Shown here in pieces: positions 10,286-47,325 of a stretch of DNA of 52,385 nt. Source of the stretch: a virus; the IMG/VR virus record IMGVR_UViG_3300035070_002282, positions 1-52,385 of that record; one strand, given 5' to 3'. Numbering within the stretch: the first letter of the stretch is position 1; every line of letters begins with the position of its first letter. A model generated the notes under the pieces. The model saw nothing but the letters and a program-made list of their open reading frames with translations, was not told the DNA's origin and searched no databases. Made by a program: the position numbers and the translations under genes.

Positions 10286-10639
10286 ATGGACGAACGATTA
10301 GAAAAGGCATTGCACTTTTCAAACTATATGGTCACGTTGAACAATCAAAAGCGTGTGCTTAAAGAAAGATTTCGCGAGCAAACGTTATACTATTATCAAG
10401 GTGGCCAGTTTACTGTAACAAAAGAACTTATGACTTTTGTTGGTATGTTAGTAGAACAAGGCAATGATGAAGATATTGTTTTAGTAGACGATAACGAAAC
10501 TCCGATTATGGTAAAAGATTTGACAGAGTTTCAAGGTGAGATCTTAAATACTTATTTTGCAGCAGCAAATGAATATCATGCAGAGTATCAAAATTTAAGA
10601 AAAAACAGAAGCGTGGAGGCACTAGTTGGTTACGAGTAA
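10286..10639 (+). CDS. conserved small phage protein of unknown function
   Basis: A 117-residue, mainly helical acidic protein (MDERLEKALHFSNYMVTLNN at the start). It is the first gene after the sigma70 promoter and has TAGGAG seven bases before its ATG. No cysteines, membrane segments or catalytic motifs. It overlaps the following glycosyltransferase by 14 bases. I recall similar short helical proteins next to tail genes in marine T4-like phages but cannot name a function. Its leader carries the hairpin described at 10241-10285, so its translation may differ between early and read-through transcripts. Confidence 0.65.
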   Translation: MDERLEKALHFSNYMVTLNNQKRVLKERFREQTLYYYQGGQFTVTKELMTFVGMLVEQGNDEDIVLVDDNETPIMVKDLTEFQGEILNTYFAAANEYHAEYQNLRKNRSVEALVGYE

Positions 10640-11513
10640 AGGTGTGCTTGTGTTTGCCCGCAATAATGCTCAGATAGATTATTGCAAACAGGCGTATGCA
10701 CTTGCAAAACGTGCCCGCAAATTTCTCGATGTTCCTACATCTATTGTAACCGATAGTACTGAATTTTTACTTAATGAATATCCGGATGCAGAACAAGTAT
10801 TTGACAAAATTATTAGTATTGTTTGGAAAGAAGAAGACTTAGCAGAAAATACTACATTATCAAAAACTGAAAATCATGCACTAAGAACATTCTATGATGG
10901 CACGTTAATTGAAAAAAAATTACATTTTAAAAACGAAACTCGTACACTAGCATACGAACTTAGTCCGTATGACGAAACATTGGTATTAGACACCGATGTT
11001 GTTATATGCAACAGCACTCTTAAGAAGTGTTTTGACCGAACACACGACTTTTTAATATATAGAACTTCATACGATCTAGCAAATAACGATCGTTCTACTG
11101 ACTTTGAACGTATATCTGACACTAGCGTAGATTTTTACTGGGCTACGTGTGTATTTTTTAGAAAGACTCCTACTAATAAATTGTTCTTCGATTTGTTGCA
11201 GCACATTCAAGAAAACTGGCCGCATTACAATAATATATTTCAAATTAATACACCTTATTATCGTAATGATTATAGCTTTGCTATTGCTATACATATAATG
11301 AATGGTTATCAACGAGGTGATTTTGCAAAAGATATGCCCGGAGTGCTATATTATACAACAGACAAAAGCATTTTATGGAAACTTAACGATACCGACATGT
11401 TATTGTTATTAGATAAACAAGGATACAGTGGAGAGTACACTCCGATTCGTACTAAAGGTGCAACTGTGCATGTTATGAATAAGTTTAGTTTGAATAGGTG
11501 CATCGATGGATAA
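10626..11513 (+). CDS. putative glycosyltransferase (GT-A fold, DxD), paralogue 1
   Basis: A 295-residue protein. The chosen start is TTG, placed six bases after a strong GGAGG (10615-10619) within the end of the preceding gene. The fold looks like a GT-A nucleotide-sugar transferase related to family 8: an N-terminal strand-helix unit (GVLVFARNN, QAYALAKRA), TSIVTDS, then L-D-T-D-V-V with the metal-binding D122-x-D124. It is clearly paralogous to the next gene (shared KQAY, TSIVT, FDKII, PYxET, VLDxDV). Probable substrate is a nucleotide sugar with Mn2+; acceptor unknown. Neighbouring transferases and the GDP-mannose epimerase point to glycan synthesis. Confidence 0.72.
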   Translation: MVTSKGVLVFARNNAQIDYCKQAYALAKRARKFLDVPTSIVTDSTEFLLNEYPDAEQVFDKIISIVWKEEDLAENTTLSKTENHALRTFYDGTLIEKKLHFKNETRTLAYELSPYDETLVLDTDVVICNSTLKKCFDRTHDFLIYRTSYDLANNDRSTDFERISDTSVDFYWATCVFFRKTPTNKLFFDLLQHIQENWPHYNNIFQINTPYYRNDYSFAIAIHIMNGYQRGDFAKDMPGVLYYTTDKSILWKLNDTDMLLLLDKQGYSGEYTPIRTKGATVHVMNKFSLNRCIDG

Positions 11514-12336
11514 AGGATTTTTAATTTTTGCACAAGGCGAAGAATATATAAAGCAAGCATATCTAGCTGCATTAAGTATTACTGCTACAAAAAATTCTTA
11601 TCGCACTAGTATTGTTACATCTGATGTAGTTCCAAACGAATACAAGTGGGCATTTGACAAAATTATTCCTATTCCTTGGTATGAAGAAACCGATAGTAGA
11701 TTTCAAACTGAGCATCGTTGGAAATTGTATCATGCAACTCCCTACAACGAAACAATTGTATTAGATGCAGACGTATTAGTATTGCAAGATTTAGATTACA
11801 TATGGAAGTTTTTTGAAAATTACGATTTATACTTTCCTACTAGGGTGTTTACGTATAGAAAAGATTTAGTAACTAGCGATTTTTATCGAAAAGCATTTAC
11901 AGCAAACAACTTGCCTAATGTATATAATGCTTTACATTTCTTTAAAAAGAGCGAGAAAAGTAAAGAATTTTATACATGGGTAGAACTTATTACTAATAAC
12001 TGGGAATTGTTTTATGGAAAATTTTGTAAAGAGTTTTTTCCTAAACAGCCTAGTATGGACATTACGTGTGCAATTGCTGCAAAAATTATGGACATAGATG
12101 CAGATATTACAAATGTAAAACAAGACATGCCGATGTTAGTACACATGAAACCTAAAATACAAAATTGGGTACAGGATACTGAAACTTGGGGTAATAGAGT
12201 TGGCATATATCTAACTGACGACTTAAAACTCAAAGTAGGTAACCATTTACAAGATACTGTGTTTCATTATGTAGATAACGATTTTGTTACAGATAAAATT
12301 ATAGGAAAATATGAAAATGCAGTTCGTAACATTTAA
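11506..12336 (+). CDS. putative glycosyltransferase (GT-A fold, DxD), paralogue 2
   Basis: A 276-residue paralogue of the preceding protein, overlapping it by 8 bases. D87-A-D89 in the segment ETIVLDADVLVL is the expected metal/nucleotide-sugar site. A later CAIAAKIMD segment (about residue 189) and HMKPKIQNW (about 209-217) would correspond to the family 8 acceptor-side H-x-x-x-x-x-K region, though this match is loose. No membrane anchor, so a cytoplasmic enzyme is likely. The duplication suggests that two related sugars or two positions of one glycan are added. Confidence 0.72.
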   Translation: MDKGFLIFAQGEEYIKQAYLAALSITATKNSYRTSIVTSDVVPNEYKWAFDKIIPIPWYEETDSRFQTEHRWKLYHATPYNETIVLDADVLVLQDLDYIWKFFENYDLYFPTRVFTYRKDLVTSDFYRKAFTANNLPNVYNALHFFKKSEKSKEFYTWVELITNNWELFYGKFCKEFFPKQPSMDITCAIAAKIMDIDADITNVKQDMPMLVHMKPKIQNWVQDTETWGNRVGIYLTDDLKLKVGNHLQDTVFHYVDNDFVTDKIIGKYENAVRNI

Positions 12337-12880
12337 CAAAGATACAGGAGAAATCATTAGTATTGGTAACGAGGCTGATGAAGGATCAAATTATATTGAA
12401 GTAGAACTAGATGCAGTGCGTTCACTTAAGAAAGGTATTGAACCTTTTTCTAATTATCGTGTAGAATATAATCCTAAAACAAAAACAATAGAACTTATAT
12501 CTGTTGCAGAAAATATCTTTGATGTAGCGTCTGTTACAGATTTTATATATGAAATTCCACAGGACGAAATATCAGAACCTGACATATCTATAATTCAAGA
12601 CATACCTAATAAGTGTTGGAAAATTGCTGTCGGCAAAACGTTAAGAAGAAATATTAGAGAAAAGGGCATAAGTTTAAATACTTCAATGATGTTTAGTATA
12701 ACTGCTAACGGTGACCCCAACGTATTATACAAAACTCTGATTGTACACACAGGGCAGACTGTTAACGATAACTACTGTATAATGCCGTTTTCAATGCCGT
12801 TTGAAACTACTAATGAACCTGTAAGCATATACACTGCTAGAAGGTTTGACACTTACCAGTTTAAGAGGTTGTATGAATAA
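12311..12880 (+). CDS. hypothetical protein inside the glycosyltransferase run
   Basis: A 189-residue protein (an ATG six bases later is an equally possible start). It overlaps genes on both sides and is therefore probably translated by coupling. The first about 65 residues look beta-rich (FVTFNKDTGEIISIGNE, YIEVELDAV). The rest has no recognisable motif, membrane segment or cysteine pair. Its tight packing between two glycosyltransferases argues that it is real and belongs to the same process, but I cannot assign a function. Confidence 0.55.
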   Translation: MKMQFVTFNKDTGEIISIGNEADEGSNYIEVELDAVRSLKKGIEPFSNYRVEYNPKTKTIELISVAENIFDVASVTDFIYEIPQDEISEPDISIIQDIPNKCWKIAVGKTLRRNIREKGISLNTSMMFSITANGDPNVLYKTLIVHTGQTVNDNYCIMPFSMPFETTNEPVSIYTARRFDTYQFKRLYE

Positions 12881-13766
12881 GATTAGAGTTGTTGACCAGG
12901 ATATAATTTTTTTAAGTTATGACGAACCCAACGCAGAAAAAAACTATGCAGATTTGTGCAATAAAATTCCTTGGGCAAAGAGAGTTCACGGAGTTGACGG
13001 CAGTGATGCTGCACACAAAGCATGTGCTGATTTATCAGAAACTGAATACTTTGTTACTGTAGATGCAGACAACATTGTTAATCCAGAATTTTTAAACGTT
13101 GAGATTGACTTAGACAGTCTTGGTCTAACTTCGGACTATGTGTTTAGTTGGTGCGGCAAAGTACACGTTAACGGACTAATGTATGGCAATGGCGGATTAA
13201 AATTATGGACACGTAAATTTGTTCATAATATGAAAACACACGAAGCGTCAGCAGACGACGATGACAAAGGTTTAGTAGAGTTCTGCTTTGACGACAAATA
13301 TCATCAGTTTAATGAAAGCTACAGTACATCATATACCAATGCAACGCCGTGGCAATCTTGGAGAGCAGGATTTCGTGAAGGTGTTAAAATGTGCTTAGAC
13401 CAAGGCACGAAAGTAAAAGATCTGCGTAAGACTTGGTGGCAAAATTTTGACCGACAGCGTATTTGGTGCTCAGTAGGTGCTGATGTAGAAAACGGTATGT
13501 GGAGTATGTTTGGCGCTCGCCAAGGGCTATACATGACAATGTGTACAGATTGGAATCATGCAAATGTGCGTGATTTTAAATATCTAAATACATTTTGGGA
13601 TCAACTCGAAGTAACAGAAGAAAATTTATTAGAAACAATCGAAGACTTAGGCGATAAAATTAGATCAAACTTAGGCATTGAAATTGGCGAACTAGATGCA
13701 AATAGCAGTCACTTTTTTAAATCAGTTTATCAAAACACACCGAGGGTGGTAAGAACACGCAAATGA
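12873..13766 (+). CDS. putative glycosyltransferase, VDAD family, paralogue 1
   Basis: The ATG at 12873, behind AAGAGG, is preferred to the TTG 27 bases upstream, giving 297 residues. Sequence order: IIFLSYDEPNAEKNY, AKRVHGVDG, then V-D-A-D (D64, D66) and VNGLMYGNGGLKL. All of these recur in the gene at 21059, which fixes them as family-conserved positions. The D-x-D after a hydrophobic strand and the later G-N-G-G segment are typical of GT-A nucleotide-sugar transferases. Substrate unknown. It ends in an ATGA overlap with a radical SAM gene. Confidence 0.62.
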   Translation: MNKIRVVDQDIIFLSYDEPNAEKNYADLCNKIPWAKRVHGVDGSDAAHKACADLSETEYFVTVDADNIVNPEFLNVEIDLDSLGLTSDYVFSWCGKVHVNGLMYGNGGLKLWTRKFVHNMKTHEASADDDDKGLVEFCFDDKYHQFNESYSTSYTNATPWQSWRAGFREGVKMCLDQGTKVKDLRKTWWQNFDRQRIWCSVGADVENGMWSMFGARQGLYMTMCTDWNHANVRDFKYLNTFWDQLEVTEENLLETIEDLGDKIRSNLGIEIGELDANSSHFFKSVYQNTPRVVRTRK

Positions 13767-15142
13767 ATAATGAACTAGACAGAATTAAAAATGTAATACC
13801 GATTACAAATAAAGCAGTCAGTCCAACTTTTTGCATGGCAAAGTGGCATCACACTACAATTTATTTGCAAACAGGTGAAACACATAGTTGTTATCATCCA
13901 GCCCCACATAAGATTCCACTTGAAGAAATTGCAGATAATCCAAGTGCATTACACAACACAAAAGAAAAAAAAGATCAACGCAGGCAAATGATGCAAGGCA
14001 AACAGCCAGCTGGTTGTAACTATTGTTGGAAAATTGAAGCAATGGGTAAAGACTATGTTAGCGATAGGCATATTAAAACAGCGAGTATCTATACTCCTGA
14101 AAGACTAACAGAAATTAAAGATAATGGATTTAATTATGACATCAACCCTGAATATATTGAGATTAGCTTCTCTAACGAATGTAACTTTAAGTGCGGCTAT
14201 TGTCACCCCAAAGCCAGCAGCAGATACTACAACGAAATCAAAACGCACGGTCCCTACACTAGCAGCACCGACCACAGACAAGACATAGACTGGTTTAAAA
14301 TTTACCAAAAAGAAGAAGACAATCCTTATGTAGATGCATGGTGGAAGTGGTGGCCCGAAGTTAGCAAAACATTAAACATCTTGCGTATTACTGGCGGTGA
14401 ACCTCTAATGCACAAAAGTACATGGGAATTATTTGAACGGTTAGATAATGACCCTAAGCCTAAATTACAAATTGAAATAAACAGTAATATGGGAGTTAAG
14501 CCTGCTCTTGTTAAGCGTCTTACTGAAACAGTCAAGCGCCTCAAAGACGAGGGTAAGATTCGTAGTTTTAAACTGTATACAAGTATCGACACTTGGACAG
14601 AACGTGCCGAATACACACGTACTGGACTAGACATTAAGCTGTGGGAACAAAACTTAGATTACTATCTAAGTAACACAGGATGGCCAGTTACGTTTATGAT
14701 TACATTTAATCTCTTTAGTGTTACAAGTTTTAATACATTACTACAAAAGATTTTAGACTGGCGTGTAAAGTATAACAGCGATACTAACGAGTCGCAGTGG
14801 CAACGTGTACGTTTTGACACTCCTCATTTAAAAGAGCCTAGCATCTACGACATGAATATTCTTCCTAAAGAAAATTTTATGCCTTACATGCACAGTCATT
14901 TACAGTTTATTAAAGATAACATAGATGACACAGACCGCACTAAGTTCACTAGTTTAGAATTTGAAAAATTTAAACGAGTTGTTGACTATATGGAAACAAC
15001 GCACTACGAAGAAGCACGTTTAAAATCTGCACATAAAAACTTTTACAATTGGTTTGCACAGCACGATAAAAGACGCAATACTAGCTTAGTAGAATCATTT
15101 CCGGAGTTAAAAGAATTTTATGAAAACTGCAAAAACACTTAA
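13763..15142 (+). CDS. radical SAM enzyme with N-terminal SPASM/twitch-like cysteine domain
   Basis: A 459-residue protein. The radical SAM cluster motif C140-x3-C144-x2-C147 (NECNFKCGYC) follows a beta strand, and TGGEPLM is the SAM-binding GGEP motif. Before the core is a cysteine domain (C24, C43 after TGETHS, C85-x2-C88) resembling a SPASM/twitch auxiliary iron-sulfur domain but placed N-terminal instead of C-terminal. Three other proteins here (22685, 25545 and the one ending at 31154) share this order. Known SPASM-type enzymes modify peptides, proteins or sugars; the substrate here is unknown. Confidence 0.82.
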   Translation: MNNELDRIKNVIPITNKAVSPTFCMAKWHHTTIYLQTGETHSCYHPAPHKIPLEEIADNPSALHNTKEKKDQRRQMMQGKQPAGCNYCWKIEAMGKDYVSDRHIKTASIYTPERLTEIKDNGFNYDINPEYIEISFSNECNFKCGYCHPKASSRYYNEIKTHGPYTSSTDHRQDIDWFKIYQKEEDNPYVDAWWKWWPEVSKTLNILRITGGEPLMHKSTWELFERLDNDPKPKLQIEINSNMGVKPALVKRLTETVKRLKDEGKIRSFKLYTSIDTWTERAEYTRTGLDIKLWEQNLDYYLSNTGWPVTFMITFNLFSVTSFNTLLQKILDWRVKYNSDTNESQWQRVRFDTPHLKEPSIYDMNILPKENFMPYMHSHLQFIKDNIDDTDRTKFTSLEFEKFKRVVDYMETTHYEEARLKSAHKNFYNWFAQHDKRRNTSLVESFPELKEFYENCKNT

Positions 15143-16427
15143 ATTTTTATACCAATGGATTGGACCGCATGGGCCTATTACAAACACTAGAGTTCCAAAT
15201 CTAGTTGATTTTGCAGTAGCAGGTAAATTAGCAGGTGTAAATACTCCTGTTAATTCCGAGTTCGGCGATTTAAATAGACAGCCTTATTTTTATGAAAAGT
15301 TTAAAGAAGAAGATGTTGTTATTGCATCTACTTGTACTACTCCTACCGGCAAAGCATTATACGAAATAAATTTTTGTAATTACCATTATAGAGACTGGAG
15401 AAAGCTATTTTCAACATCTGACGGCATTATGCAAGAGCAACTGTTTTATATTAGAGGATTTGAAGAGGCTAATATCTATGCATTAGTAACAGTGCTCTAT
15501 GAAGGCTGGGTACACGATAAGTTTTTTGATGAACTGCATAAGTTTTTTGAGCATTTAAAATTTCCGTTAGAAAGAGTAGTGTACGTAAATAATTGTTACA
15601 ATGGTGAAGAAATTTATAAAAATTATTGTGAACGAAGAAGCATCACTCCTAGTATTAATGTAGAATATTTTCCTTCTTTTAGATTTGACAAAACTAACCT
15701 AGAGCATGTTAGTGAAAAATATAAAAACATAGAATATGTTCCTGGTCCAAGAAAGAAAGATTTTTTGTGTTTCCAGCGTAGATGGAGCGATCATAGGGTA
15801 GCATTTTATTTAGACATGCATCGTAAAGGACTGTTAGATAAGTTCTATATGAGTATGGATGCAACCCAACCTGAATCAGGCGCTTCGTATGAAAGTAATG
15901 CAGTGTACTTGGGACAACGCTATCCGCAGTTCAAATATACTACTGAAGAAATCAAAGATGCGCAAGCGTCATTGCCGTTAATTTTAGATACGCACAACTT
16001 TAGTAGTTACCCAATGGAATCAAACGAGTTCGATACTGAGCAATACTTTAAAGATTCACTAATAAATATTATTAGTGAAACATTCTTTTTCAATAAAGAA
16101 ATCCACATCACAGAAAAAACTTTTAAGCCTATTGCATTTATGCAACCGTTTATTATGATGGGAGCAGTTGGTAGTTTGCAACACGTTAAGGATATGGGAT
16201 TTAAAACATTTAGTGAGTTCTGGGATGAGAGCTACGACACTATTAGAAATGATGCAAAACGTTATGACAAGATTGTTAAACTTGTAGAAGAGATCGCAGC
16301 GTGGAGTGAAGAAAAGAAACTAGAGTTTAGTTACAATGTAAAGGATATTGTTGAGTTTAATTCAAAACATTTTGCAACAATGGAACATGTTGAACTAGAA
16401 AACTTTAAAAACAAATATGGAAATTAA
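15120..16427 (+). CDS. putative glycosyltransferase-like protein, TEK family member 1
   Basis: A 435-residue protein. The C-terminal half carries ITEKTFKPIAFMQPFIMMG, then GFKTFSEFWDESYD and a conserved R (about residue 381). Closely parallel segments occur at 17383 and 19808, so this is a three-member family here. An S/T-E-K motif followed by a conserved P-F-I and a glycine-rich turn resembles the donor-binding end of GT-B enzymes such as fucosyltransferases, but this is analogy only. It begins inside the radical SAM gene, overlapping by 23 bases. No secretion signal. Confidence 0.55.
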   Translation: MKTAKTLKFLYQWIGPHGPITNTRVPNLVDFAVAGKLAGVNTPVNSEFGDLNRQPYFYEKFKEEDVVIASTCTTPTGKALYEINFCNYHYRDWRKLFSTSDGIMQEQLFYIRGFEEANIYALVTVLYEGWVHDKFFDELHKFFEHLKFPLERVVYVNNCYNGEEIYKNYCERRSITPSINVEYFPSFRFDKTNLEHVSEKYKNIEYVPGPRKKDFLCFQRRWSDHRVAFYLDMHRKGLLDKFYMSMDATQPESGASYESNAVYLGQRYPQFKYTTEEIKDAQASLPLILDTHNFSSYPMESNEFDTEQYFKDSLINIISETFFFNKEIHITEKTFKPIAFMQPFIMMGAVGSLQHVKDMGFKTFSEFWDESYDTIRNDAKRYDKIVKLVEEIAAWSEEKKLEFSYNVKDIVEFNSKHFATMEHVELENFKNKYGN

Positions 16428-16430
16428 TAC

Positions 16431-17399
16431 ATGAAGAAAATATTAGTAACAGGCGCTGGTGGATTTATTGGATACCATTTAGTAAAAAATCTAAAACATC
16501 AAGGGCATTACGTAGTTGGAGCAGATATTAAAGAACCGTTGTATGACCAAACTCACGCTGATGAATTTTATTTGTACGACTTGCGCGATCCTCGACGAGT
16601 AGAAGAATTAATTTCTGGAAAGGAATTTGACGAAATTTACCAACTTGCAGCCGATATGGGCGGCACAGGGTATATTGCAATTAGCGACCACGATAGTGCA
16701 ATTATGCACAATTCGGCAATGATTAATTTAAATATGATTCATGCTGCTGCACAACATCTTGTTCCAAAGATTCTTTATACAAGCAGTGCATGTGTATACC
16801 CCGAGCGTAATCAGACCGATCCAGACAATCCGTTATGTTCTGAATCAAGTGCATATCCTGCAGAGCCCGATACAGAGTACGGTTGGGAAAAATTGTTTAG
16901 TGAACGCTTATATCTAACATACGCTAAAAATTATGGCATTGATGCTAAGGTAGTAAGATTGCATAATGTATTTGGCCCGCAAGGAAGTTGGAACGACGGT
17001 AAAGAAAAAGCACCAGCTGCACTATGCCGCAAAGTTGCTGAAAGTAACGGCTCAGTAGACATTTGGGGACCAGGCAATCAAACACGTAGTTTTTTATATA
17101 TCGATGAATGTGTTGAAGGGTTAAAACGAATTATGCATAGTAACATTGATTTTCCTATTAATTTAGGTAGTGAACGTATGATTAGTATTAATGACCTTGC
17201 AAGATTAATTGCACAAATTGCTGGAAAGAATACAATTGAAATTAATAATGTACAAGGACCTGTCGGTGTAATGGGACGCTCTAGTCATAACGAGCTACTC
17301 GAAAAAAGTCTAGGGTGGCGTCCTAGCGAGGATTTAGAATACGGATTGTCAAAAACATATCCTTGGATTAAGGAACAGGTAGATGCTAGTATACAGTAA
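16431..17399 (+). CDS. GDP-mannose 3,5-epimerase (NAD-dependent, SDR family)
   Basis: A 322-residue extended SDR enzyme. NAD-binding G8-x-G10-G11-x-x-G14 is present, followed by AADMGG, SSACVYPE, a Y150-x3-K154 catalytic pair, REKAPAA-like EKAPAAL with K193, and TRSFLYIDECVEG. Catalytic C121, Y150, K154 and K193 each sit exactly 24 residues before the positions I recall for the Arabidopsis enzyme (C145, Y174, K178, K217), so the whole catalytic set is conserved in register. The known reaction converts GDP-D-mannose to GDP-L-galactose (and GDP-L-gulose). It would supply an activated sugar to the surrounding transferases. This is the most specific functional call in the cluster. Confidence 0.88.
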   Translation: MKKILVTGAGGFIGYHLVKNLKHQGHYVVGADIKEPLYDQTHADEFYLYDLRDPRRVEELISGKEFDEIYQLAADMGGTGYIAISDHDSAIMHNSAMINLNMIHAAAQHLVPKILYTSSACVYPERNQTDPDNPLCSESSAYPAEPDTEYGWEKLFSERLYLTYAKNYGIDAKVVRLHNVFGPQGSWNDGKEKAPAALCRKVAESNGSVDIWGPGNQTRSFLYIDECVEGLKRIMHSNIDFPINLGSERMISINDLARLIAQIAGKNTIEINNVQGPVGVMGRSSHNELLEKSLGWRPSEDLEYGLSKTYPWIKEQVDASIQ

Positions 17400-21040: not shown

Positions 21041-21058
21041 TGAGTATATAATTAAACA

Positions 21059-32188: not shown

Positions 32189-32227
32189 GCTATTATTTAC
32201 ATAAGTATTACTAGATAAAGGCGTATT
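32189..32227. promoter_or_regulatory. divergent intergenic region
   Basis: Only 39 bases separate two divergent start codons (32188 reverse, 32228 forward). AAAGG precedes the forward start. AT-rich elements such as TAATACT on the reverse strand could serve as a -10 box, but neither a convincing -35 nor a NATAAATA late core is present. A promoter must exist here for at least the reverse operon; its type is not evident. Confidence 0.3.
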
Positions 32228-39032: not shown

Positions 39033-39063
39033 AAATTTTAATCCAATTATTGGTTTGCACAAA

Positions 39064-39071: not shown

Positions 39072-39079
39072 GATAAATA
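39072..39079 (+). promoter_or_regulatory. T4-type late promoter, forward strand (GATAAATA)
   Basis: GATAAATA lies 40 bases upstream of the SGNH hydrolase-like gene at 39120. The same first-base variant is used at 3119 and 7676. Immediately adjacent to the reverse-strand core. Confidence 0.58.
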
Positions 39080-39119
39080 ATTAAAGCAGCATATAATGTG
39101 AACAATGGAATACTAAATT

Positions 39120-39947: not shown

Positions 39948-40032
39948 TTGGATTCGAACACTATATATTAAAATTAAATATAGAAAAAAACTTAAAGAGC
40001 TATCGAAAAGATCACCGTATATTTACAGATAA
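39940..40032 (+). CDS. possible 30-residue basic peptide
   Basis: Start overlaps the preceding stop and GAGAGG stands just upstream, so translation by coupling is plausible. The peptide (MFNWIRTLYIKIKYRKKLKE, then LSKRSPYIYR) is strongly basic and aromatic, unlike random readthrough. It sits immediately before a B12-type radical SAM gene. It might be a leader or modification substrate, but such short ORFs are often spurious, so this is tentative. Confidence 0.35.
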   Translation: MFNWIRTLYIKIKYRKKLKELSKRSPYIYR

Positions 40033-40044
40033 AATAGGTAACTA

Positions 40045-42006
40045 ATGAATTCTTCTAAAAAGAAAGTAGTGATTTATGTACCTGATTCAACTAGCGGCAT
40101 CTATCTTCCGCTGCTTTGGGCCAGTGCTAAAAGCTACTATGAAATTAAAGGACAGCGGCCTGACGAGTACGAATGGATTCATCCGCGCATTAATTATGAA
40201 TTCAATTTTGAAAAACTTAAAGAACAATTACTTAAAATAAAACCAGATGTATTTGGTATTAGTATGTACATCTGGAACGATGTACAATGCCTTGAAGCAG
40301 CTAAATGGGTTAAAGAAACTTTTCCTAACTGTTTAGTAATAAGCGGCGGCCCACAACAATATTTTAAACATGAAAGAGATTGGTTTGAAAAGTACACATT
40401 CCTTGACGCAAGTCTTGATGGCGGACAATATGGCGAAGTTACTATTGCAGATATCCTAGATAATCTAACTGACGATAACAAAGTTGATTGGGATTTAGTT
40501 ACTGAAGTAGTTTATCCTGGAAAAACTATTCTGCCAAAAACAGATCGAGGAATTCTTAAAAGTAAAAAGCGTATTAACAAACGAGCCTTTATGTGGGATT
40601 ACAGTCCTTATGATATGCAACGAGATGTTATATTAGAGTGTTCTAATGAAATTAGATCGCTAACTAGCGAGAATGAAACGTATGACGTTAATGCATATGT
40701 TAATGGAAAATTAGAAACAACTCGAGGTTGTCCTTATGCGTGTGCGTTCTGTGATTGGGGCGGAGGCATTGCATCAAAGGTTATTCAAAAATCTGTAGAT
40801 AAAGTTAAGTTAGATATTAATGTTTTAGAAGAAGCAGGTTGTTCTTATATTTTCCTTTGTGATGCAAACTTTGGAATAATGCGTGACCGAGATATTGAAA
40901 TTATGAACTATCTTGCTGAACGAAAAAAGAAAAATCCATTTTTGTTTCATGTATACTTTGGCGGCTTTGCTAAATCAGACAAGCACACTGAAGTCATAAA
41001 AGAAATTTTAGACATTGATGCAAGGCATAATCTAACATGGGATTTAAGCTACAAAGCTAGTATACAAAGTATTCATAAAGATATTTTAGATAACATTAAA
41101 CGTACTGACATTTCTTTTGAAAAGCACATTTATTTGGCCAAACATCTTAAAGATAATTATAATTTTTCTTCATATGCTGAATGTATTAGTGGTCTTCCGG
41201 GAATAACTCCTGACAGATGGTACGAAGAAATGAATGTTTTTGCATCGCACAATATGGACATTTGTTTGTACAACTGGCATATGCTTCCTGAAACACCGAG
41301 TTACGATCAAGCATTTAGAGATAGAATGGGCATTAAAACTGTTGAAAAGTTTAATAACATGCAAACTAATAACTCTACATTACGTAAGAGTGAAGTAGTA
41401 GTAGAAACTTTTAGTTATACTAAAGAAGATTATAAAGAAATGTGGATGGCATATGCTATTCAACGATCGTTTTGGGCAACAGGCCTATTAAGAAAAACAA
41501 TCAAACAGATCTTAAAACAGTCAGACATTGGCTACGGCGACTTTGTTAAAATGTTTTATAGAGATTTTTTAAGAGGCAACCCCGGACCTGTATTTAAAAA
41601 ATATGTAGATCAGGTTGATAAACAGTATGCTGATTATTATGATCCAAACAGCGATGTTAGTAATTTGTCAATTATGTTTCCTACAGCTAATGTGCCAATG
41701 CAAAGTTCTCTTATGCTATTTTATTTTTACAATCTCGACAACTGTAGAGATACATTAGTGTCATGGTTAATACATAACTTTCCGTACCTTAATGAAAAGG
41801 CAATTAACAAAGAGCTTGACAAATTTATTACTGTAAACAATAGATACACTACTAAGTTCAGTTTAACTAGAGCAATTAGTTTTAACAACAGTGTTATTGA
41901 CCAATTTAAAAAAGACACAGAAGGTAACTTAGTAGACTTTATAGTTACTCAAATGGAAACTTATACTAACACCAATTTCTTGACAGCAAGGGCAATAGGT
42001 GTATAA
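40045..42006 (+). CDS. B12-binding-domain radical SAM enzyme
   Basis: A 653-residue protein. Residues about 5-140 are a Rossmann-type domain like the B12-binding domain of class B radical SAM enzymes (PDVFGISMYIW, LVISGGPQQYF), but the D-x-H-x-x-G cobalamin ligand motif is absent. The radical SAM motif is C229-x3-C233-x2-C236 (RGCPYACAFC). The core continues with FLCDANFGIM and GLPGITPDRW. A C-terminal about 200 residues are helical and unrecognised. Enzymes of this class commonly methylate unactivated carbons or phosphinates. Coupled to TauD-like and methyltransferase genes. Confidence 0.8.
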   Translation: MNSSKKKVVIYVPDSTSGIYLPLLWASAKSYYEIKGQRPDEYEWIHPRINYEFNFEKLKEQLLKIKPDVFGISMYIWNDVQCLEAAKWVKETFPNCLVISGGPQQYFKHERDWFEKYTFLDASLDGGQYGEVTIADILDNLTDDNKVDWDLVTEVVYPGKTILPKTDRGILKSKKRINKRAFMWDYSPYDMQRDVILECSNEIRSLTSENETYDVNAYVNGKLETTRGCPYACAFCDWGGGIASKVIQKSVDKVKLDINVLEEAGCSYIFLCDANFGIMRDRDIEIMNYLAERKKKNPFLFHVYFGGFAKSDKHTEVIKEILDIDARHNLTWDLSYKASIQSIHKDILDNIKRTDISFEKHIYLAKHLKDNYNFSSYAECISGLPGITPDRWYEEMNVFASHNMDICLYNWHMLPETPSYDQAFRDRMGIKTVEKFNNMQTNNSTLRKSEVVVETFSYTKEDYKEMWMAYAIQRSFWATGLLRKTIKQILKQSDIGYGDFVKMFYRDFLRGNPGPVFKKYVDQVDKQYADYYDPNSDVSNLSIMFPTANVPMQSSLMLFYFYNLDNCRDTLVSWLIHNFPYLNEKAINKELDKFITVNNRYTTKFSLTRAISFNNSVIDQFKKDTEGNLVDFIVTQMETYTNTNFLTARAIGV

Positions 42007-43085
42007 TGAAGGTAACAAAGTTTCCTGTAGGTAATTATGGAGTTATTATTGACGATTTAGACCTCGATAATATTACTAATGAAGAATGGGAAGAAATTGG
42101 TAAACTCCATTTAAAGAACTTAGTTACAATTATACGAGGCAGTAAGTGCAACGTAGACCAATTTTCTAAACTTATACACCAATGGGGTCCTGAGTTTTGG
42201 AGTTTAAAATATTCATTACTTAAAAAGTATAATCTAAACTGGAGTACTTTTCAAGCAGCAGTACTAGCTGACTTACCTATTATTGAACCAATAGATAAAG
42301 AAATTTTAGACATTCTTTACAAGGCAAGTGTAACTGCTGAGAATGGTAAAAGCATTAATTTTTTTAGTTCGTCAAAAGACGAAAAAGGTGATTACGGATT
42401 ATACGGCGGCCAAGAATTAGACTGGCATATGCACAGCAGCGGCAACTATGTTTTTGAACATGCTGTTAGCTTACTAGCTGCTAAGAACGTTGTAGGCACT
42501 GCTACGGGCTTTGTAAGCACTGCTGATTACTATGAAAGTGTCTCAGAAAGTTTTAGATCAGAACTTAATGACATGATTGTATTACACAAATACGATAGTG
42601 CAGATGTAGACCCTCCTTTTAGACCAAGTGAAGAAGCAGTACTTAAATTTAAAATGTGCCCAGTGGACTATAATGAAGTGCCTATGGTAATACAAAGTCC
42701 TGGAGGAATTAAAGGATTGCACTTTTCTCCTCCTACTATGTACAAAATTAAAGATGCAACTGAAAAAGAAAGTCAGAAAATATTTAATACTATTTCAAAA
42801 AAATTGTTTAGTAAGAAATATATTTATGATCATTGGTATACGCAAGACGGCGATTTTTTAACATTTGACAATAGCATCACACTACACAGACGAGTAGGTC
42901 AAACAGACGACAGAAAAATATATAGAATAGAACACACCTACGATAATCTGTTAGATAAATTTTACGAACCGTTTTTACAAGAAAAGTATGCTAAACAACA
43001 TAGAAAAATGATTAGACAAATTATGAATCTAGATAAAAGTTCTGGATTTATTAAGCCTCCATTTAAGATTAAGGATTTATTATGA
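42006..43085 (+). CDS. TauD/TfdA-like oxygenase with H-x-H metal motif
   Basis: A 359-residue protein whose layout matches TauD/TfdA-family 2OG dioxygenases: N-terminal beta region, a metal site after W140, then TFDNSITLHRR with distal H294 and R303/R307 (DRKIYRIEH) for 2-oxoglutarate. The first two ligands read H141-M142-H143 instead of the normal H-x-D. The bases at 42426-42434 (CAT ATG CAC) confirm this. It overlaps the radical SAM gene (TAATG) and the methyltransferase gene (ATGA). Activity cannot be assumed because the acidic ligand is replaced. Confidence 0.72.
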   Translation: MKVTKFPVGNYGVIIDDLDLDNITNEEWEEIGKLHLKNLVTIIRGSKCNVDQFSKLIHQWGPEFWSLKYSLLKKYNLNWSTFQAAVLADLPIIEPIDKEILDILYKASVTAENGKSINFFSSSKDEKGDYGLYGGQELDWHMHSSGNYVFEHAVSLLAAKNVVGTATGFVSTADYYESVSESFRSELNDMIVLHKYDSADVDPPFRPSEEAVLKFKMCPVDYNEVPMVIQSPGGIKGLHFSPPTMYKIKDATEKESQKIFNTISKKLFSKKYIYDHWYTQDGDFLTFDNSITLHRRVGQTDDRKIYRIEHTYDNLLDKFYEPFLQEKYAKQHRKMIRQIMNLDKSSGFIKPPFKIKDLL

Positions 43086-43765
43086 CACCTAAAGAAAAAC
43101 AAATTAAAGAGTTTTACGACACTATTACATTTCCGGGATTATATAAATCTATAGATGTTGTTGAGTATGGTGACTATTTAATCTACGAACGTTACTTGAG
43201 ATTCTATGAAGATAATGATGTAACTACAGTTCTTGACATTGGGTGCGGCAGCGGATTTGTCACTAATGTTATTGCGTATAATAATCCGCATCTAAAAATT
43301 ACTGCTATTGATTTCAGCGACACTATTGAGCACGGAAAGAAAATTGCAAAAGAGTTAGGCATTAAGAATATTAAATGGGTCAAAGCAAACTTTTTAACAA
43401 AGAAATTTAATAACACATATGACGTAGTGTTTGCTAACGGCTCTTTACATCATATGCCCGAATATAAAACTGCTGTAGAAAAAGCAAAGTCGTTAACGCA
43501 TAATTTCTTATTAGTTGGGCTTTATAACAAATACGGCAAATGGATACAACGAAACATAGTCCCCAAATTTAGTACTGTTTGTTTTGAATTAGATCAAATG
43601 TCTATTCCGTTTGAACTTAGTTTTACACATAATCAATCTAAGAAAGCATTTAAAGAGTTTAAACTTGTAAAAGTTACTCCTAGTATATTTGGTGTGGGCG
43701 TAGACTTTGTAAGTCTGTTTAGAGGTAAATGGGGCGGATTTACGTTTTATACGTTTAAAAGATAA
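43082..43765 (+). CDS. SAM-dependent methyltransferase (class I)
   Basis: A 227-residue protein with a standard motif I, LDIGCGSGF (51-59), an acidic strand end KITAIDFS, KWVKANFL and then DVVFANGSLHHM, the usual post-I and catalytic-strand elements of class I methyltransferases. No target specificity is evident. It completes a tight three-gene unit (B12-type radical SAM, TauD-like, methyltransferase). Its last 19 bases overlap the convergent gene at 43747. Confidence 0.82.
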   Translation: MTPKEKQIKEFYDTITFPGLYKSIDVVEYGDYLIYERYLRFYEDNDVTTVLDIGCGSGFVTNVIAYNNPHLKITAIDFSDTIEHGKKIAKELGIKNIKWVKANFLTKKFNNTYDVVFANGSLHHMPEYKTAVEKAKSLTHNFLLVGLYNKYGKWIQRNIVPKFSTVCFELDQMSIPFELSFTHNQSKKAFKEFKLVKVTPSIFGVGVDFVSLFRGKWGGFTFYTFKR

Positions 43766-44328
43766 TCTGAAAACATAGCAACAGCTAATCCAAAACTAAC
43801 GTGTTTAGGTTCTGATTTTTCAGCAAGTGGTACTGCTAAAGTCCAACGCCCTTTGGGACCAGGACAGTATGTACTGTGTAACATTCCTACTTGTACTAAA
43901 CTAGGAATATTTGTAGGTGTCCTGTGTATTTCATTGCACTGATGAGCTTCTGCTCTTAGATAATTTACGCCAAATGTAGTTGTAATTGGTTCGGGTGCGA
44001 ATCCTTTTTTAGGTTGCCACCAGATAATTTCGCCATCACCGTATGAGATATTTAATCTTGCAATATCGCTTATATGGTCTGTATCTGCATGTAACCAAAT
44101 ACCTCCGCCGGGCGGAGTATAAAATGCCTCCCAAGATGGAATACGTAGTCCGGAAATACCTTCCATAAAGTCTACAAACTCTTTGTTAATCATTGTCTTA
44201 GGATCAAGTTCTACATGATTTAATTGATCGGGATTTTCCGGAAATAATTTAAACAGATCTATTTCCGGCATCACTGGAAGATTTAAGTACTGGTGTACAT
44301 ATGGCTTTCTTTTAAATAGATTAAACAT
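43747..44328 (-). CDS. 2OG-Fe(II) oxygenase-like protein, paralogue 2 of the SGNH operon
   Basis: A 193-residue protein. H80-x-D82 (IWLHADTDH), distal H151 (GMLHSTYCPG) and R161 (KGRWTLAVPL) make a full cupin-type iron site. It is paralogous to the gene at 45097-45702 (same order: FYTPPxGG, HxDT, WWxP, FG.xYL.A, SLVxxGxxHST, GRWTLxxxL). It is the last gene of the reverse operon 47280-43747 and overlaps the SGNH gene by 8 bases. Confidence 0.75.
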   Translation of the reverse strand: MFNLFKRKPYVHQYLNLPVMPEIDLFKLFPENPDQLNHVELDPKTMINKEFVDFMEGISGLRIPSWEAFYTPPGGGIWLHADTDHISDIARLNISYGDGEIIWWQPKKGFAPEPITTTFGVNYLRAEAHQCNEIHRTPTNIPSLVQVGMLHSTYCPGPKGRWTLAVPLAEKSEPKHVSFGLAVAMFSDYLLNV

Positions 44329-45100
44329 TAAAAAATATCTTCTTTATTTCCTCTGCTATTAACTTGTAACCTTCAATAGTAGGGTGCATGTCATTAGTCA
44401 TATAAGTAGCAGGGCCGTCCATTTTAGGATAATGATTTGCTACGGTTTCGTAGTCATCTGCGCATACGTTGTCGCGCCTTGCAAATAATCGAGCAAAACA
44501 ATCATAGTCAGTGTGACTATGTACACATCGACTCCAGTCTATCTTATTTGCAACATCGGGGCACATTTTCTTTAAATATTCTTCGCCCCGTATTTCAAAA
44601 CCGTTTCCAAATACAAAATCAAATCCATTAGCTTTGGCAAAGTTTTGTGCTTCTAAAATACAACAAGCAGTTTCTACAGCAGCAGCACTTGCACTATATA
44701 ACTTTGAATACATAATGTGAATATCTTTATGATCTAAAAAAGGCCAAAGTGTTTCAAACTTATAATGATCTTCTTTCCAGCCTTCTTTAAAAAGATCAAA
44801 CCGTTCAAAGCCTGTAAGAATTAAAACAACAGTACCGCCATTATATTCATCAAAGTCATTTAAGTATAAACTGCGCACTGCGCCTCTATTGCCAATTGCA
44901 CGTTGACCTAAATTAATTGGAGTATAATCTAATAAGTCTGCTAGTCGTTTAACCCAACTGTTTTCTTGTTCCATAGGAATTAGGTGCATAGACTCGGATA
45001 GTTTCTTCCACATGCGTCCGTTATTAGCATCCCAAACTTCTTTAGTGTAGCCACCTTCTCCCTGCGTCCAACTGTCGCCTATGCCTATTATTGTTTTCAT
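44321..45100 (-). CDS. SGNH/GDSL hydrolase
   Basis: A 259-residue protein. IGIGDSWTQGEG carries the nucleophile S10 in a classic G-D-S block. NLGQRAIGNRG (63-73) is block II and TNDMHPTIEGYKLIAEEI (235 onward) supplies the histidine H239 with D237 or N236 nearby. These are the expected SGNH blocks in order. Likely an esterase/deacylase or acetyltransferase acting on a sugar or lipid. It lies between two paralogous 2OG oxygenases in a coupled reverse operon, a context repeated loosely at 39120. Confidence 0.78.
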   Translation of the reverse strand: MKTIIGIGDSWTQGEGGYTKEVWDANNGRMWKKLSESMHLIPMEQENSWVKRLADLLDYTPINLGQRAIGNRGAVRSLYLNDFDEYNGGTVVLILTGFERFDLFKEGWKEDHYKFETLWPFLDHKDIHIMYSKLYSASAAAVETACCILEAQNFAKANGFDFVFGNGFEIRGEEYLKKMCPDVANKIDWSRCVHSHTDYDCFARLFARRDNVCADDYETVANHYPKMDGPATYMTNDMHPTIEGYKLIAEEIKKIFFNV

Positions 45101-45702
45101 ACTTGATCTTTACTCACGTATTCGCTAAGTTTATCTAATGCTTCGTCCCATAATACTCTGCGCTCGCTACCAATATGCACTAGCGCAAGACTTAATGTCC
45201 ATCGACCTTCTTCACTAGGGTTCCACGTACTATGAAATGTGCCTATGTTTACAAGGCTTGGTTTATTAATTTCTACTTCAAGTAGTTTCTTACAATGGCG
45301 TTCTTTAGCAGTAAGATACGGTAATCCAAACTCTGTTTGAAAAGTGTCAATGTATTTTTCATGTTTTGGCTCCCACCAAATTAACTTACTTTTAGGAGCA
45401 CCGTATGTCCAATTAATTTTAACAACATCAGATAGTTCAGGAGTGTCAGTGTGAATAGGAATCTTCCCCCCATAAGGCGGAGTATAAAATGCTTCAACCC
45501 AAATTGGATTAAATCCTACACCTTCAATCCATTTAATAAGTTCTAGATTAATTTCTGTATCCTCAACCGTAATGTGTCGATTGAACATAGGATCATAATC
45601 TGTTCTAGCAAATAGATCAATTTTAGGATCTACAGGTATATCGAGAAATCGATGAAAACGATTTTCTTTCTTTTTCTTTTTAAACAAATCAAACATTGAC
45701 AT
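45097..45702 (-). CDS. 2OG-Fe(II) oxygenase-like protein, paralogue 1 of the SGNH operon
   Basis: A 201-residue protein, paralogue of 43747-44328. H84-x-D86 (IPIHTDTPE), distal H157 (GTFHSTWNPS) and R167 (EGRWTLSLAL) are the predicted ligands. The N-terminus is lysine-rich (LFKKKKKENRFH). It starts inside the preceding 2OG gene by 14 bases. The duplicated pair flanks an SGNH hydrolase, which suggests the two oxygenases act before and after, or at two sites, on one substrate. Confidence 0.75.
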   Translation of the reverse strand: MSMFDLFKKKKKENRFHRFLDIPVDPKIDLFARTDYDPMFNRHITVEDTEINLELIKWIEGVGFNPIWVEAFYTPPYGGKIPIHTDTPELSDVVKINWTYGAPKSKLIWWEPKHEKYIDTFQTEFGLPYLTAKERHCKKLLEVEINKPSLVNIGTFHSTWNPSEEGRWTLSLALVHIGSERRVLWDEALDKLSEYVSKDQV

Positions 45703-46513
45703 AATTATCTATGGTGTACTTACTAACTAAGCAATGATCCTTATATTTTTCAATACTGCGATTTAGTACAGTTTCGTATTGTTCTAGATCTACAATTGCA
45801 ATAACAACTGCTAAGATTTTAGAATAATTATCGTCCTTAACGCTACCATGCACACAACGTAAGTTGTTCCACATGTAAGTATTAGTTTCTTCAAGCTGTG
45901 GTAAGAAAAACGTATCCTCTACGTTATACGGTTTAGTAGGGTTATCCATTACGTACAATGTAGACTCCGGGTTTTCATCATAAAGCGGAATTCTAAATGA
46001 ATTTGGACCATCCCACATTTCTGCACTATCTCTATGCTCAGAGAATGTTTGTACACTTGACCATAAGTTTAATGTTAGTATATCCTTTACGGGAAGCGAC
46101 TCGTGAAATTGCTGCCATAACTTTGGAAATTCTTTTTTAAACTCGTCAGTGTGCATATTTAAATCCCAGTCGTCGCCTACTTTTTGTATTAAATCTACTG
46201 AATAGAATGGACTAAATTCTGGCCCTGTGACTTGTGCTACATAATCACCGTTTTGCTTAACTGGTTTAATAGCGTGTTTAAAATACCAATCCTTAAAGTG
46301 TTCAGGATCATCAAGTTCAAACTTTGGTACGTCAATAGGCACTGCTAAGTATTTTCCAAATTTCTTCTCTATATCGTAAACTTTAGGATCGTTGCCTAGG
46401 AAGTTTTCAATTTGAAATTTTCTTTGAGTACTAATATGCTCTACTAATTTTGAACTGTCTGCTGTTTCTCTTGCTCGTGCAGCTAGTGCATTTTCAGTTG
46501 GTTCATACCGCAT
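45689..46513 (-). CDS. 2OG-Fe(II) oxygenase-like protein
   Basis: A 274-residue protein. H160-x-D162 (FSEHRDSAEMW), R174 (NSFRIPLYD), a W-N-N-L-R-C segment and H222 (VHGSVKDD) outline a cupin-type iron site. The residue after H222 that should bind 2-oxoglutarate appears to be a lysine (K232, SKILAVV). The first about 100 residues have no recognised motif. It overlaps its neighbours by one base upstream and 14 bases downstream. Confidence 0.65.
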   Translation of the reverse strand: MRYEPTENALAARARETADSSKLVEHISTQRKFQIENFLGNDPKVYDIEKKFGKYLAVPIDVPKFELDDPEHFKDWYFKHAIKPVKQNGDYVAQVTGPEFSPFYSVDLIQKVGDDWDLNMHTDEFKKEFPKLWQQFHESLPVKDILTLNLWSSVQTFSEHRDSAEMWDGPNSFRIPLYDENPESTLYVMDNPTKPYNVEDTFFLPQLEETNTYMWNNLRCVHGSVKDDNYSKILAVVIAIVDLEQYETVLNRSIEKYKDHCLVSKYTIDNYVNV

Positions 46514-47280
46514 TAGATTATTTCTCCGTACTTTGCTCTTATTTCTTTATAGTTATCTCTAGTGAACTTTTCACTAGACAGGTCAATAGTTTCGTCATAC
46601 GGATCACAAGGGGTCATTCCAATATGTGCCATATCTAAATCAATCATAAACACTACTCGCCATTCGTTAGAATTATTATACGCACTATGTGTATGTTGAT
46701 TATTAAATCCCCAAATATTATCCCAAGTAACTTCTTCGCCACTAGCTTCTAAAAATACATCTCCTTCAGGAATAATAAGAGGAATATGAATCCTAATATA
46801 TTTTCCGTCTCTGTTCTCAGGACCACTATGTCTATTTAATATAGTATGAGGAGCAAGTATAGTGTAATTAGCAATAGGACAATACTCGTTGTATTCTTTT
46901 ACTAGCTTATGTGCAGTAGGGTACTTACGAGCAATTCTATCTCCGTCACTTCTAGCAAACTGAAAATCAATCAGTTCATCATGTCTGCTGTATTTAAATT
47001 GTATGCCCTTCCAGCCCGACATGTCTTTTTCATATTCACCTGTCTCTAGGTTTTTTATTTCAACGCCTTGTACAGTTTCGTCTAATGCTACACCAAACAT
47101 ACGTAAATCTAAATTATCTGTAGAATACTTTTTACATGCTTGTTCTAAAGAATCAAATCCTTCTAGGAATTCGTCACGGAGAGCATCTTGAAAGCCCATA
47201 AGATAATCGGCGATAGGAATTTCATTTCCTCGCCAAATTTTCTTCATTTGGTAAATTTCTTCTAAGGATTTCTTATACAT
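46513..47280 (-). CDS. aspartyl/asparaginyl beta-hydroxylase
   Basis: A 255-residue protein with the family's defining core at 140-215. HTILNRHSGPENRDGKYIR has H151-x-G153: members of this family are known to use two histidines with glycine replacing the aspartate. RIHIPLIIPEGD, W-D-N-I-W-G-F-N-N, H198 (HTHSAYNNSNEWR) and R208 complete the 2OG site. The known reaction is hydroxylation of Asp/Asn side chains in proteins. It heads the reverse operon and its ribosome-binding region lies in the hairpin at 47281-47310. Confidence 0.82.
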   Translation of the reverse strand: MYKKSLEEIYQMKKIWRGNEIPIADYLMGFQDALRDEFLEGFDSLEQACKKYSTDNLDLRMFGVALDETVQGVEIKNLETGEYEKDMSGWKGIQFKYSRHDELIDFQFARSDGDRIARKYPTAHKLVKEYNEYCPIANYTILAPHTILNRHSGPENRDGKYIRIHIPLIIPEGDVFLEASGEEVTWDNIWGFNNQHTHSAYNNSNEWRVVFMIDLDMAHIGMTPCDPYDETIDLSSEKFTRDNYKEIRAKYGEII

Positions 47281-47317: not shown

Positions 47318-47325
47318 ATTAGATA

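Follow-up and report, generated by a model that had tools for sequence, protein, structure and literature searches.

A conserved 37-kb island of tailoring enzymes between tail fibre genes in a relative of the jumbo phages

The viral DNA analysed here (the window: 52,385 nt, positions 1 to 52,385 of IMG/VR record IMGVR_UViG_3300035070_002282) comes from an uncultivated giant phage and carries an island of 41 closely packed genes, whose probable role is to remodel a coat of glycan or protein in infection. The island spans 36.6 kb (36.6 to about 37 kb) and encodes about 40 soluble enzymes, including eight radical SAM enzymes, eleven iron/2-oxoglutarate (2OG) enzymes, one flavin halogenase and several sugar transferases. 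Other viral contigs kept up to 37 of 43 genes in collinear order and at the same genomic site, and the catalytic residues of the island enzymes were invariant among orthologs; the island is no chance accumulation. An earlier note, made from the letters of this DNA, had listed most of these enzymes. They are real and conserved together: neither the scattering of genes among relatives nor the failure to fit 2OG and radical SAM folds, for which that note had allowed, was seen.

Layout and enzyme content

Genes are named by their lower coordinate in the window. Fibre genes were found at both borders, as the earlier note had claimed: a tail fibre gene on the left (7709..9196, forward strand; phrog_19602 tail fiber, E 4e-17) and a tail fibre-like gene on the right (47326..48693, reverse strand; PF18454 Mtd_N, E 5e-5, below cut-off). 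Neighbouring island genes overlap, as also described, or abut, and the widest internal gap is 97 bp. None of the 41 genes encoded a multi-TM protein, which implies either borrowed export machinery or a cytosolic target. The flippase, polymerase and initiating transferase that mark a surface-polysaccharide locus were absent from the island, and neither tRNAs nor Rfam families were found within the window.

All eight radical SAM proteins passed the PF04055 cut-off (Pfam, E 4e-8 to 2.5e-11), and CxxxCxxC was invariant across every ortholog of all eight, confirming the earlier count. Four exceeded the 170-bit cut-off of the twitch-domain family NF033640: 13763..15142 (forward, 322 bits), 22685..23971 (forward, 225 bits), 25545..26846 (forward, 405 bits; also supported by a tree) and 31154..32251 (reverse, 224 bits). 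The cut-off was not reached by 21714..22697 (forward; PF04055 E 2.5e-11), the radical SAM/SPASM protein 23895..24950 (forward; PF04055 and PF13186; likely start 23964, the position given in the earlier note), 27499..28401 (forward; PF04055 E 9e-11) or 40045 (forward), a B12-type, KedN5-like enzyme.

The eleven predicted 2OG oxygenases were likewise all supported, seven by Pfam cut-offs and four by profile, motif or fold. PF13640 or PF05118 (Asp_Arg_Hydrox) was matched by 18509 (forward; above cut-off, with no orthologs for comparison), 32228..32944 (forward; PF05118 E 1e-14), 34398-35057 (forward; PF05118 E 1e-12; formerly 34410), 35014-35604 (forward; PF05118 E 1e-14), 36007..36678 (forward; PF05118 E 3e-9) and 46513 (reverse), and TauD by 42006 (forward). 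The proline-hydroxylase-like 26846..27502 (forward) matched proline hydroxylases in PDB (E 1.9e-5) and a PF05118-type set by profile-profile comparison (probability up to 97%), with HxD...H invariant in 45 sequences. The other three lie on the reverse strand within 43747..47280. Among them, 43747 and 45097 formed a single family with invariant HxD...H...R and a profile-profile probability of up to 94% to 35014, and the AlphaFold model of 45689 (pLDDT 83) had 2OG enzymes as its listed Foldseek matches. The iron motif HxD...H was present in nine of the eleven proteins, the exceptions being 42006 (HxH) and 46513 (HxG), and the 2OG-binding Arg or Lys was conserved in seven of these nine (26846 and 18509 were not scored). 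We rejected a SyrB2/WelO5-type Fe/2OG halogenase identity for 46513, since its nearest PDB match was human AspH (E 3.5e-12), a two-His hydroxylase without halogenase activity and with the same HxG iron site. Four further window proteins matched the AspH family (PF05118) and 26846 was related to it by profile; as a point of difference, Pfam scans of the window proteins detected no EGF-like domains.

The flavin halogenase of the earlier note was also recovered. It is a tryptophan-halogenase family protein (36654..37874, forward; PF04820, 268 bits; PDB E 5e-51) in which GxGxxG and the catalytic Lys and Glu were invariant or almost invariant across 16 sequences, and the WxWxIP signature was relaxed to WKWRVC. 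It is followed by a GNAT-like protein (37826-38404, reverse), recognised by eye and with no family matches, and by a mini AMP-binding protein (38394-39062, reverse; PF00501 E 8e-18), a shortened form of 222 aa with TSGSTxxPK invariant in relatives.

The remaining assignments of that note stood in part. Its two SGNH hydrolases are mostly motif-level calls, 39120 (forward) having no family match and 44321 (reverse) falling below cut-off. Among its four methyltransferase-like proteins, 43082 (forward) gave a strong match, and 19197 (forward) and 24940..25545 (forward; PF13649) scored under the cut-offs. Its kinase (30712..31167, reverse; small, RIO/APH-like) and its phosphatase (35601..36020, forward; dual-specificity-like, CX5R invariant in 14 sequences) were below the Pfam cut-offs, yet their catalytic motifs were invariant. 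Profiles supported two of its seven glycosyltransferases, the GT8/glycogenin-like 10626-11513 and 11506-12336 (both forward; glycogenin profile E 1e-5, DxD conserved). The other five are putative and motif-based: 12846..13766 (forward; DxD), which is 33% identical to its paralogue 21059..21745 (forward), and the mutually related 15120, 17383 and 19808. PDB sequence searches with these two families gave nothing credible. An additional conserved protein (32941..34413, forward) showed a weak GT-A resemblance by AlphaFold and Foldseek (LARGE1, 4.5e-4) and a weak likeness to the PBCV-1 capsid glycosyltransferase. Two repeat-rich proteins (28369-29508 and 29505-30743, reverse), conserved in 19-21 viral loci, are probably beta-propellers judging from their sequence; a PDB sequence search with 28369 found nothing credible.

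Relatives, gene order and promoters

Collinearity with relatives was far above that of shuffled orders, and the core was collinear in at least seven relatives. Compared with the relative G029, dN/dS was 0.05-0.32, indicating purifying selection, with large dS. The island is modular, combining a common core, a right module (forward 39120..43765 and reverse 43747..47280) that was entire in three relatives (G029, G030 and G031), and a sugar module (15120..21040, forward) specific to the window and absent from all 13 compared contigs. The sugar module comprises the three related putative glycosyltransferases, an NDP-sugar epimerase (16431), the 2OG oxygenase 18509 and the methyltransferase-like 19197. 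Fibre genes adjoined the island wherever contigs extended to its borders.

Within the core, genes 21059, 21714, 23895, 24940 and 25545 (three radical SAM enzymes, a methyltransferase and a glycosyltransferase) formed a cassette that recurred across dozens of viral contigs and also in Bdellovibrionota chromosomes. In 75 viral loci with 25545, 23895 was present in 70 and 24940 in 65. Bdellovibrionota homologues matched 21059 at 41-47% and 21714 at 46-53%, and there is evidence that core genes were exchanged between viruses and Bdellovibrionota. Each Bdellovibrionota genome had 7-42 matches to NF033640, the family in which four window proteins score above cut-off, and homologues of 23895, 25545, 21714 and 24940 were grouped with a glycosyltransferase in both settings. 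The bacterial loci differ in that they are chromosomal and lack phage fibres and the majority of the 2OG proteins, and in having some membrane proteins and, as neighbours, nine GT2-family proteins, an Asn synthase and an amine oxidase.

The border genes, and gp23 of the relatives, had their best matches in the jumbo phages Phosso, PA5oct, 121Q and GAP32. The phage belongs to this jumbo T4-superfamily clade (Phosso/PA5oct), and an ordinary marine T4-like identity was rejected. The earlier note had judged the gene set far beyond the usual auxiliary complement. This holds against isolate phages, where a tblastn search of 50,697 records gave relatives of the twitch radical SAM in just 4 and none for 21714 or 46513; the best isolate matches of the tested cassette genes were absent or below 35% identity. 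It does not hold against uncultivated large phages: all 36 contigs picked for a twitch radical SAM or an adjacent island protein encoded 4-23 radical SAM proteins.

The island forms a variable block in the tail-fibre region of a T4-superfamily phage and in this resembles the host recognition cluster (HRC) of pelagimyophages, which is placed between VrlC and gp14 and has smaller radical SAM/glycosyltransferase islands (PMC7029224), and, in cyanomyophages, the hyperplastic region of Millard 2009 (cited in PMC3037559). Both are large variable islands next to tail-fibre genes with glycosyltransferases and radical SAM cassettes, and 2OG oxygenases and a tryptophan halogenase occur in such phages. 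Unlike the non-syntenic HRC, the window island has a collinear core in which only modules vary, about 40 enzymes with eight radical SAM and eleven 2OG proteins, and a jumbo-clade carrier. The uncultivated T4-like phage TARA_ERS488813_N000010 has 12 radical SAM genes (PMC5332604). Its likeness to the window is one of published description, not sequence, and its radical SAM genes were framed as Fe-S metabolism, not as a 2OG/glycosyltransferase/halogenase island (PMC5332604).

Sigma-70-like promoters were found at the island start (10231..10259, forward; TTGACA-17-TATACT, 11/12 match, also 11/12 in G029 and G011) and before the radical SAM core (21024..21052, forward; TTGACA-17-TATAAT, 12/12, likewise in G029). 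The window held three perfect 12/12 sites against 0.1 expected. The T4-late type motif ATAAATA stood upstream of the left fibre gene 7709 in all four relatives and of the right fibre-like gene 47326 in all six, and within 70 nt of all 14 orthologs of three fibre-block genes; for island genes the figure was 10 of 259, about chance. T4-late promoters for the island units were therefore rejected, TATAAATA also being unenriched in the window (5 against 8.6 expected).

Possible functions of the island

A modification factory for a glycan or peptide, as proposed in the earlier note, is still the best class of explanation. We tentatively suggest, as a reading that could well be right, a modular, early-expressed pathway of soluble tailoring enzymes at a fixed locus, acting on a surface glycoconjugate, of the host surface first and the virion second. 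Host RNA polymerase would transcribe the island early, and the glycosyltransferases and epimerase would build or lengthen a glycan on a carrier made by the cell. The radical SAM, 2OG and halogenase enzymes may then oxidise, hydroxylate, methylate and halogenate this glycan or attached amino acids, and the SGNH-like, GNAT-like, kinase and AMP-binding proteins may attach or strip acyl and phosphoryl groups. Host export machinery would deliver the product to the infected cell's surface, and there it could block rival phages and predators or prevent progeny from sticking to debris. The flanking fibre genes would co-vary with the island because fibre and surface must match.

This host-surface reading is favoured by the conserved order, purifying selection and invariant active sites, by the GT8-like enzymes and epimerase, by the perfect sigma-70 sites and lack of the late motif at island genes, and by the occurrence of the core cassette in chromosomes of Bdellovibrionota, where phage fibres are lacking. 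The glycosyltransferases of the pelagimyophage island have likewise been proposed to alter the host surface (PMC7029224). Against it, the island lacks a flippase, polymerase and initiating transferase and so does not encode the whole route to a surface glycan, and most of the glycosyltransferases are motif-level calls.

The kind of promoter and the homologues in bacteria lean to the host side, although the promoter evidence is indirect, since enzymes made early can still modify proteins made late. The fixed site between fibre genes and the AspH-like and SPASM/twitch relatives of protein modifiers fit virion proteins equally well. The soluble enzymes might act in the cytoplasm on tail-fibre or adhesin proteins, adding sugars, hydroxyl and methyl groups and halogens, which would diversify receptor binding or protect the particle. 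We consider this rather unlikely. The lack of membrane proteins, the matches of 46513 to a protein hydroxylase and of 26846 to proline hydroxylases, and the weak likeness of 32941 to a capsid glycosyltransferase are in its favour, and peptides are frequent targets of twitch/SPASM radical SAM enzymes (PMC11002830). However, the late motif marks fibre genes and not island genes, the bacterial cassettes lack fibres to modify, and the fibres carry no collagen-like repeats, rejected here as prolyl-hydroxylase targets, or other obvious target motif.

The mixture of halogenase, KedN5-like B12 radical SAM, AMP-binding protein and methyltransferases recalls natural-product pathways, and twitch radical SAM enzymes also act on aminoglycosides (e.g. 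BtrN). A diffusible small molecule derived from an amino sugar or amino acid, released in the course of infection or upon lysis and directed, for instance, at competitors or predators, is nonetheless improbable: Pfam scans found no PKS, NRPS, ACP, transporter or resistance gene, and the AMP-binding protein is truncated. Maturation of a ribosomal peptide (RiPP) by radical SAM/SPASM and 2OG enzymes would agree with eight radical SAM proteins, five of them with SPASM or twitch domains. It appears quite improbable, as the internal gaps, all under 100 bp, leave no space for a precursor gene, scans found no RRE, peptidase or transporter, and the SPASM protein 23895 scored under every RiPP maturase cut-off.

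The 2OG, glycosyltransferase and radical SAM classes hypermodify phage DNA in other systems. A role in DNA or nucleotide hypermodification is very hard to credit here, as the island 2OG proteins are of PF05118, PF13640 and TauD types, not TET/JBP, and the same cassette occurs in bacterial chromosomes; TET/JBP-type 2OG enzymes (PF12851) had no matches in 17 relatives, with control genomes silent too. Contamination or mis-assembly of a bacterial island, which the Bdellovibrionota homologues might suggest, is refuted by the recurrence of this island, with these fibre genes on either side, in several independent contigs, and by gp23 and TerL in the syntenic relatives G009 and G013.

More speculatively, and on the doubtful side, large phages and predatory Bdellovibrionota may share an undescribed radical SAM/methyltransferase/glycosyltransferase system for a new, heavily oxidised and possibly halogenated surface glycoconjugate, with genes having moved between the groups and the phage version expanded, early-expressed and re-coating infected cells. 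The shared cassette ties giant uncultivated phages to bacterial predators and is a testable lead on host and chemistry, and its conserved order defines a minimal set of five genes for expression and assay. Candidate enzymes added by the island include the 222-aa AMP-binding protein, a small halogenase, and the two-His and HxH 2OG enzymes. If the phage does carry a conserved 37-kb pathway of oxidative tailoring, it spends a great deal of genome on a single chemical product, which probably has a central part in infection or competition.

Enzyme content of the island

The block between the tail-fibre genes (10626-47280) held 41 ORFs of 139-653 aa, which abutted or overlapped with a widest internal gap of 97 bp, in agreement with the tight packing described in the earlier note. 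All eight radical SAM enzymes counted there exceeded the Pfam cut-off, and the single flavin halogenase (36654, named like all genes here by its start) scored 268 bits in Pfam. The eleven proposed 2OG-Fe(II) oxygenases (2OG) are also supported, seven by Pfam cut-offs and four by further tests. In the PDB, 26846 matched L-proline cis-4-hydroxylase (E 1.9e-5) and proline 3-hydroxylase (E 5.5e-5). Genes 43747 and 45097 formed a single family with an invariant HxD...H...R, which matched 35014 in profile-profile comparison with a probability of up to 94%. The structure model of 45689 had a pLDDT of 83 and a pTM of 0.85, and all 50 Foldseek matches listed were of 2OG type (PHD2, SnoN, PolD, ALKBH5 and HalB/HalD among them), with modest TM-scores. 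Other families claimed from the sequence held up in part. The glycosyltransferases (GT) were firm only for the glycogenin-like 10626 and 11506 and the methyltransferases only for 43082, while the remaining members of both groups, and the SGNH hydrolases, none of which is among the firm assignments, are weaker claims. Epimerase 16431 is a firm assignment.

Two 2OG proteins had unusual iron sites, HxG in 46513 and HxH in 42006. The HxG site first suggested that 46513 and its orthologs were iron halogenases. This reading was dropped because the closest solved relative, human AspH (E 3.5e-12), shares the HTGP motif, holds its iron by two histidines and gave no sign of halogenase activity. The sole halogenase candidate of the island is 36654. 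In the TauD-family protein 42006-43085 (plus strand), His-X-His replaces His-X-Asp in all ten close sequences, and distant homologues have Asn or Asp at that position. A 222-aa AMP-binding protein (38394-39062, minus strand), kept in relatives with invariant TSGSTxxPK and TGD motifs, lacks the N-terminal part and the C-terminal lid domain, and represents either a minimal form of an adenylate-forming enzyme or one recruited to another role. Two adjoining repeat-rich proteins (28369-30743, minus strand), 45-83% conserved in island relatives, had no Pfam match, and the first had no PDB sequence match. They are probably beta-propellers, possibly serving as scaffold or glycan-binding subunits.

Conservation and phage identity

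The island was compared with 13 viral contigs, with shuffled gene orders as control, and its genes were found to be kept together. The nearest contig, G029, had 37 of 43 genes in common with the window, all collinear and with matching strands. Six further contigs (G031, G030, G013, G009, G011 and G004) had 16-27 genes in common, 16-25 of them collinear where shuffling gave a mean of 6.5-8.7, and the other six had 6-19 in common. Among contigs with jumbo-type borders, the same border genes were found on the left in G029, on both sides in G013, G009, G011 and G004, and on the right in G001. At the right border of the window, a VWA/metallopeptidase-like protein (50252-51595) and a MoxR-type ATPase (51693-52370, both minus strand) form a pair conserved in jumbo phages; the PHROGs label of the former, “HNH endonuclease”, looks like a misannotation.

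The island is built of modules. Four blocks were widely shared (the left GTs, the radical SAM core, propeller/kinase and 2OG/halogenase); the right module (39120-46513) occurred only in G029, G030 and G031, and the block 15120-21040 in none of the 13 contigs. Similar genes for part of the latter were present on L164, a phage-like contig filed as bacterial. In a nucleotide comparison with G029, dN/dS was 0.05-0.32, rough values as synonymous sites were near saturation. Active-site residues showed little or no variation in the halogenase and in the radical SAM, 2OG, AMP-binding, kinase and phosphatase proteins.

The closest isolate relatives of the border genes were the jumbo phages Sinorhizobium phage Phosso, PA5oct, 121Q and Agrobacterium phage Atu_ph07. 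Contigs G009 and G013 (~185 kb each) carried border genes and island in the same order and encoded a T4-type gp23 and TerL, the gp23 of G009 being 66-71% identical to that of Phosso, PA5oct and GAP32. The phage of the window, a 52-kb viral record, therefore most likely belongs to the jumbo branch of the T4 superfamily rather than among the typical cyanophages or pelagiphages.

The core cassette in Bdellovibrionota

Relatives of the radical SAM gene 25545 were present at 75 viral loci. Within the flanks that were fetched, 70 of these loci had 23895, 65 the methyltransferase-like 24940, 45 had 21714 and 37 the putative GT 21059. The best bacterial matches of 25545 (43-49%) were Bdellovibrionota without exception, and there its homologues adjoin those of 21714, 23895, 24940 and 12846/21059. 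Homologues of 32228, 26846 and 32941 were found at other Bdellovibrionota loci. These loci are chromosomal, as shown by ABC-transporter genes on their long contigs, an argument that leaves out phage-like bacterial-binned contigs such as L157 and L164. The latter two, from a Bdellovibrionales and a Rhodobacteraceae MAG, had phage fibre-border and island genes in phage order. They are probably phage sequences that ended up in bacterial bins, or else hints of the host.

In the 25545 tree, a clade of nine viral sequences was nested within Bdellovibrionota (support 97/93 and 100/99), and genes have therefore moved between viruses and Bdellovibrionota at least once. The window fell in a separate all-viral clade, sister to the group holding Bdellovibrionota and the nine viral sequences. 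Bdellovibrionota genomes had 7-42 matches each to NF033640, a twitch-domain radical SAM family. On the Bdellovibrionota contigs L225-L234 such genes often stood in runs of several neighbours, and no description of this expansion was found in the literature. Among isolate phages, tblastn recovered four weak records for 25545, one for 26846 and none for 21714 or 46513. The halogenase family occurs in cyanophages and one pelagiphage at ~30% identity.

Transcription and possible target

The T4 late-promoter core, ATAAATA, was found within 70 nt upstream of the flanking structural and fibre genes 3146, 7709 and 47326, in the window and in 14/14 orthologs. Upstream of island genes it occurred in 10 of 259 cases, about the chance rate of 2.4%. 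Directly before the first island gene lies TTGACA-17-TATACT, with equal strength in G029 and G011, and a perfect TTGACA-17-TATAAT precedes 21059, with equal strength in G029. Perfect sigma-70-type sites numbered 3 in the window against 0.1 expected; the third (41980-42007) runs into the start of 42006 and could be there by chance. These signals suggest that the island would be transcribed early by a host-type RNA polymerase and the fibres late. Between 47326 and 46513, an inverted repeat (47281-47325), AATATAGCAC...GTGCTATATT, holds in its loop, on the minus strand, the GGAGG ribosome-binding site of 46513.

A hypervariable “host recognition cluster” in pelagimyophages combines fibre genes with glycosyltransferases and radical SAM cassettes, and host-surface alteration was proposed for it (PMC7029224). 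Cyanophages encode as many as five 2OG oxygenases, along with tryptophan halogenases (PMC3037559), and 12 radical SAM genes are known from a Tara T4-like genome (PMC5332604). The island resembles these precedents in kind but differs in being ordered, far richer in 2OG enzymes, located in a different phage lineage and tied by a link to Bdellovibrionota. No account of such a link or of the core cassette was found in open-licence papers.

The island enzymes are soluble; no multi-span membrane protein was encoded here or in the islands of most relatives, and the island has no room for a precursor peptide gene. That bacterial chromosomes lacking phage fibres also carry the core points to a cell-made molecule as its original substrate, and nine GT2 family members were found among the Bdellovibrionota neighbours scanned. 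We therefore tentatively prefer a reading in which the island modifies a glycoconjugate of the host surface, every step from enzyme families to product being one that we infer. Modification of the virion fibres is somewhat less likely; the fixed island location, the AspH-like 46513 and proline-hydroxylase-like 26846, and the weak GT-A similarity between 32941 and a viral capsid glycosyltransferase speak for it. If the host glycoconjugate is indeed the target, the phage would alter its host's surface via the host's own export route.
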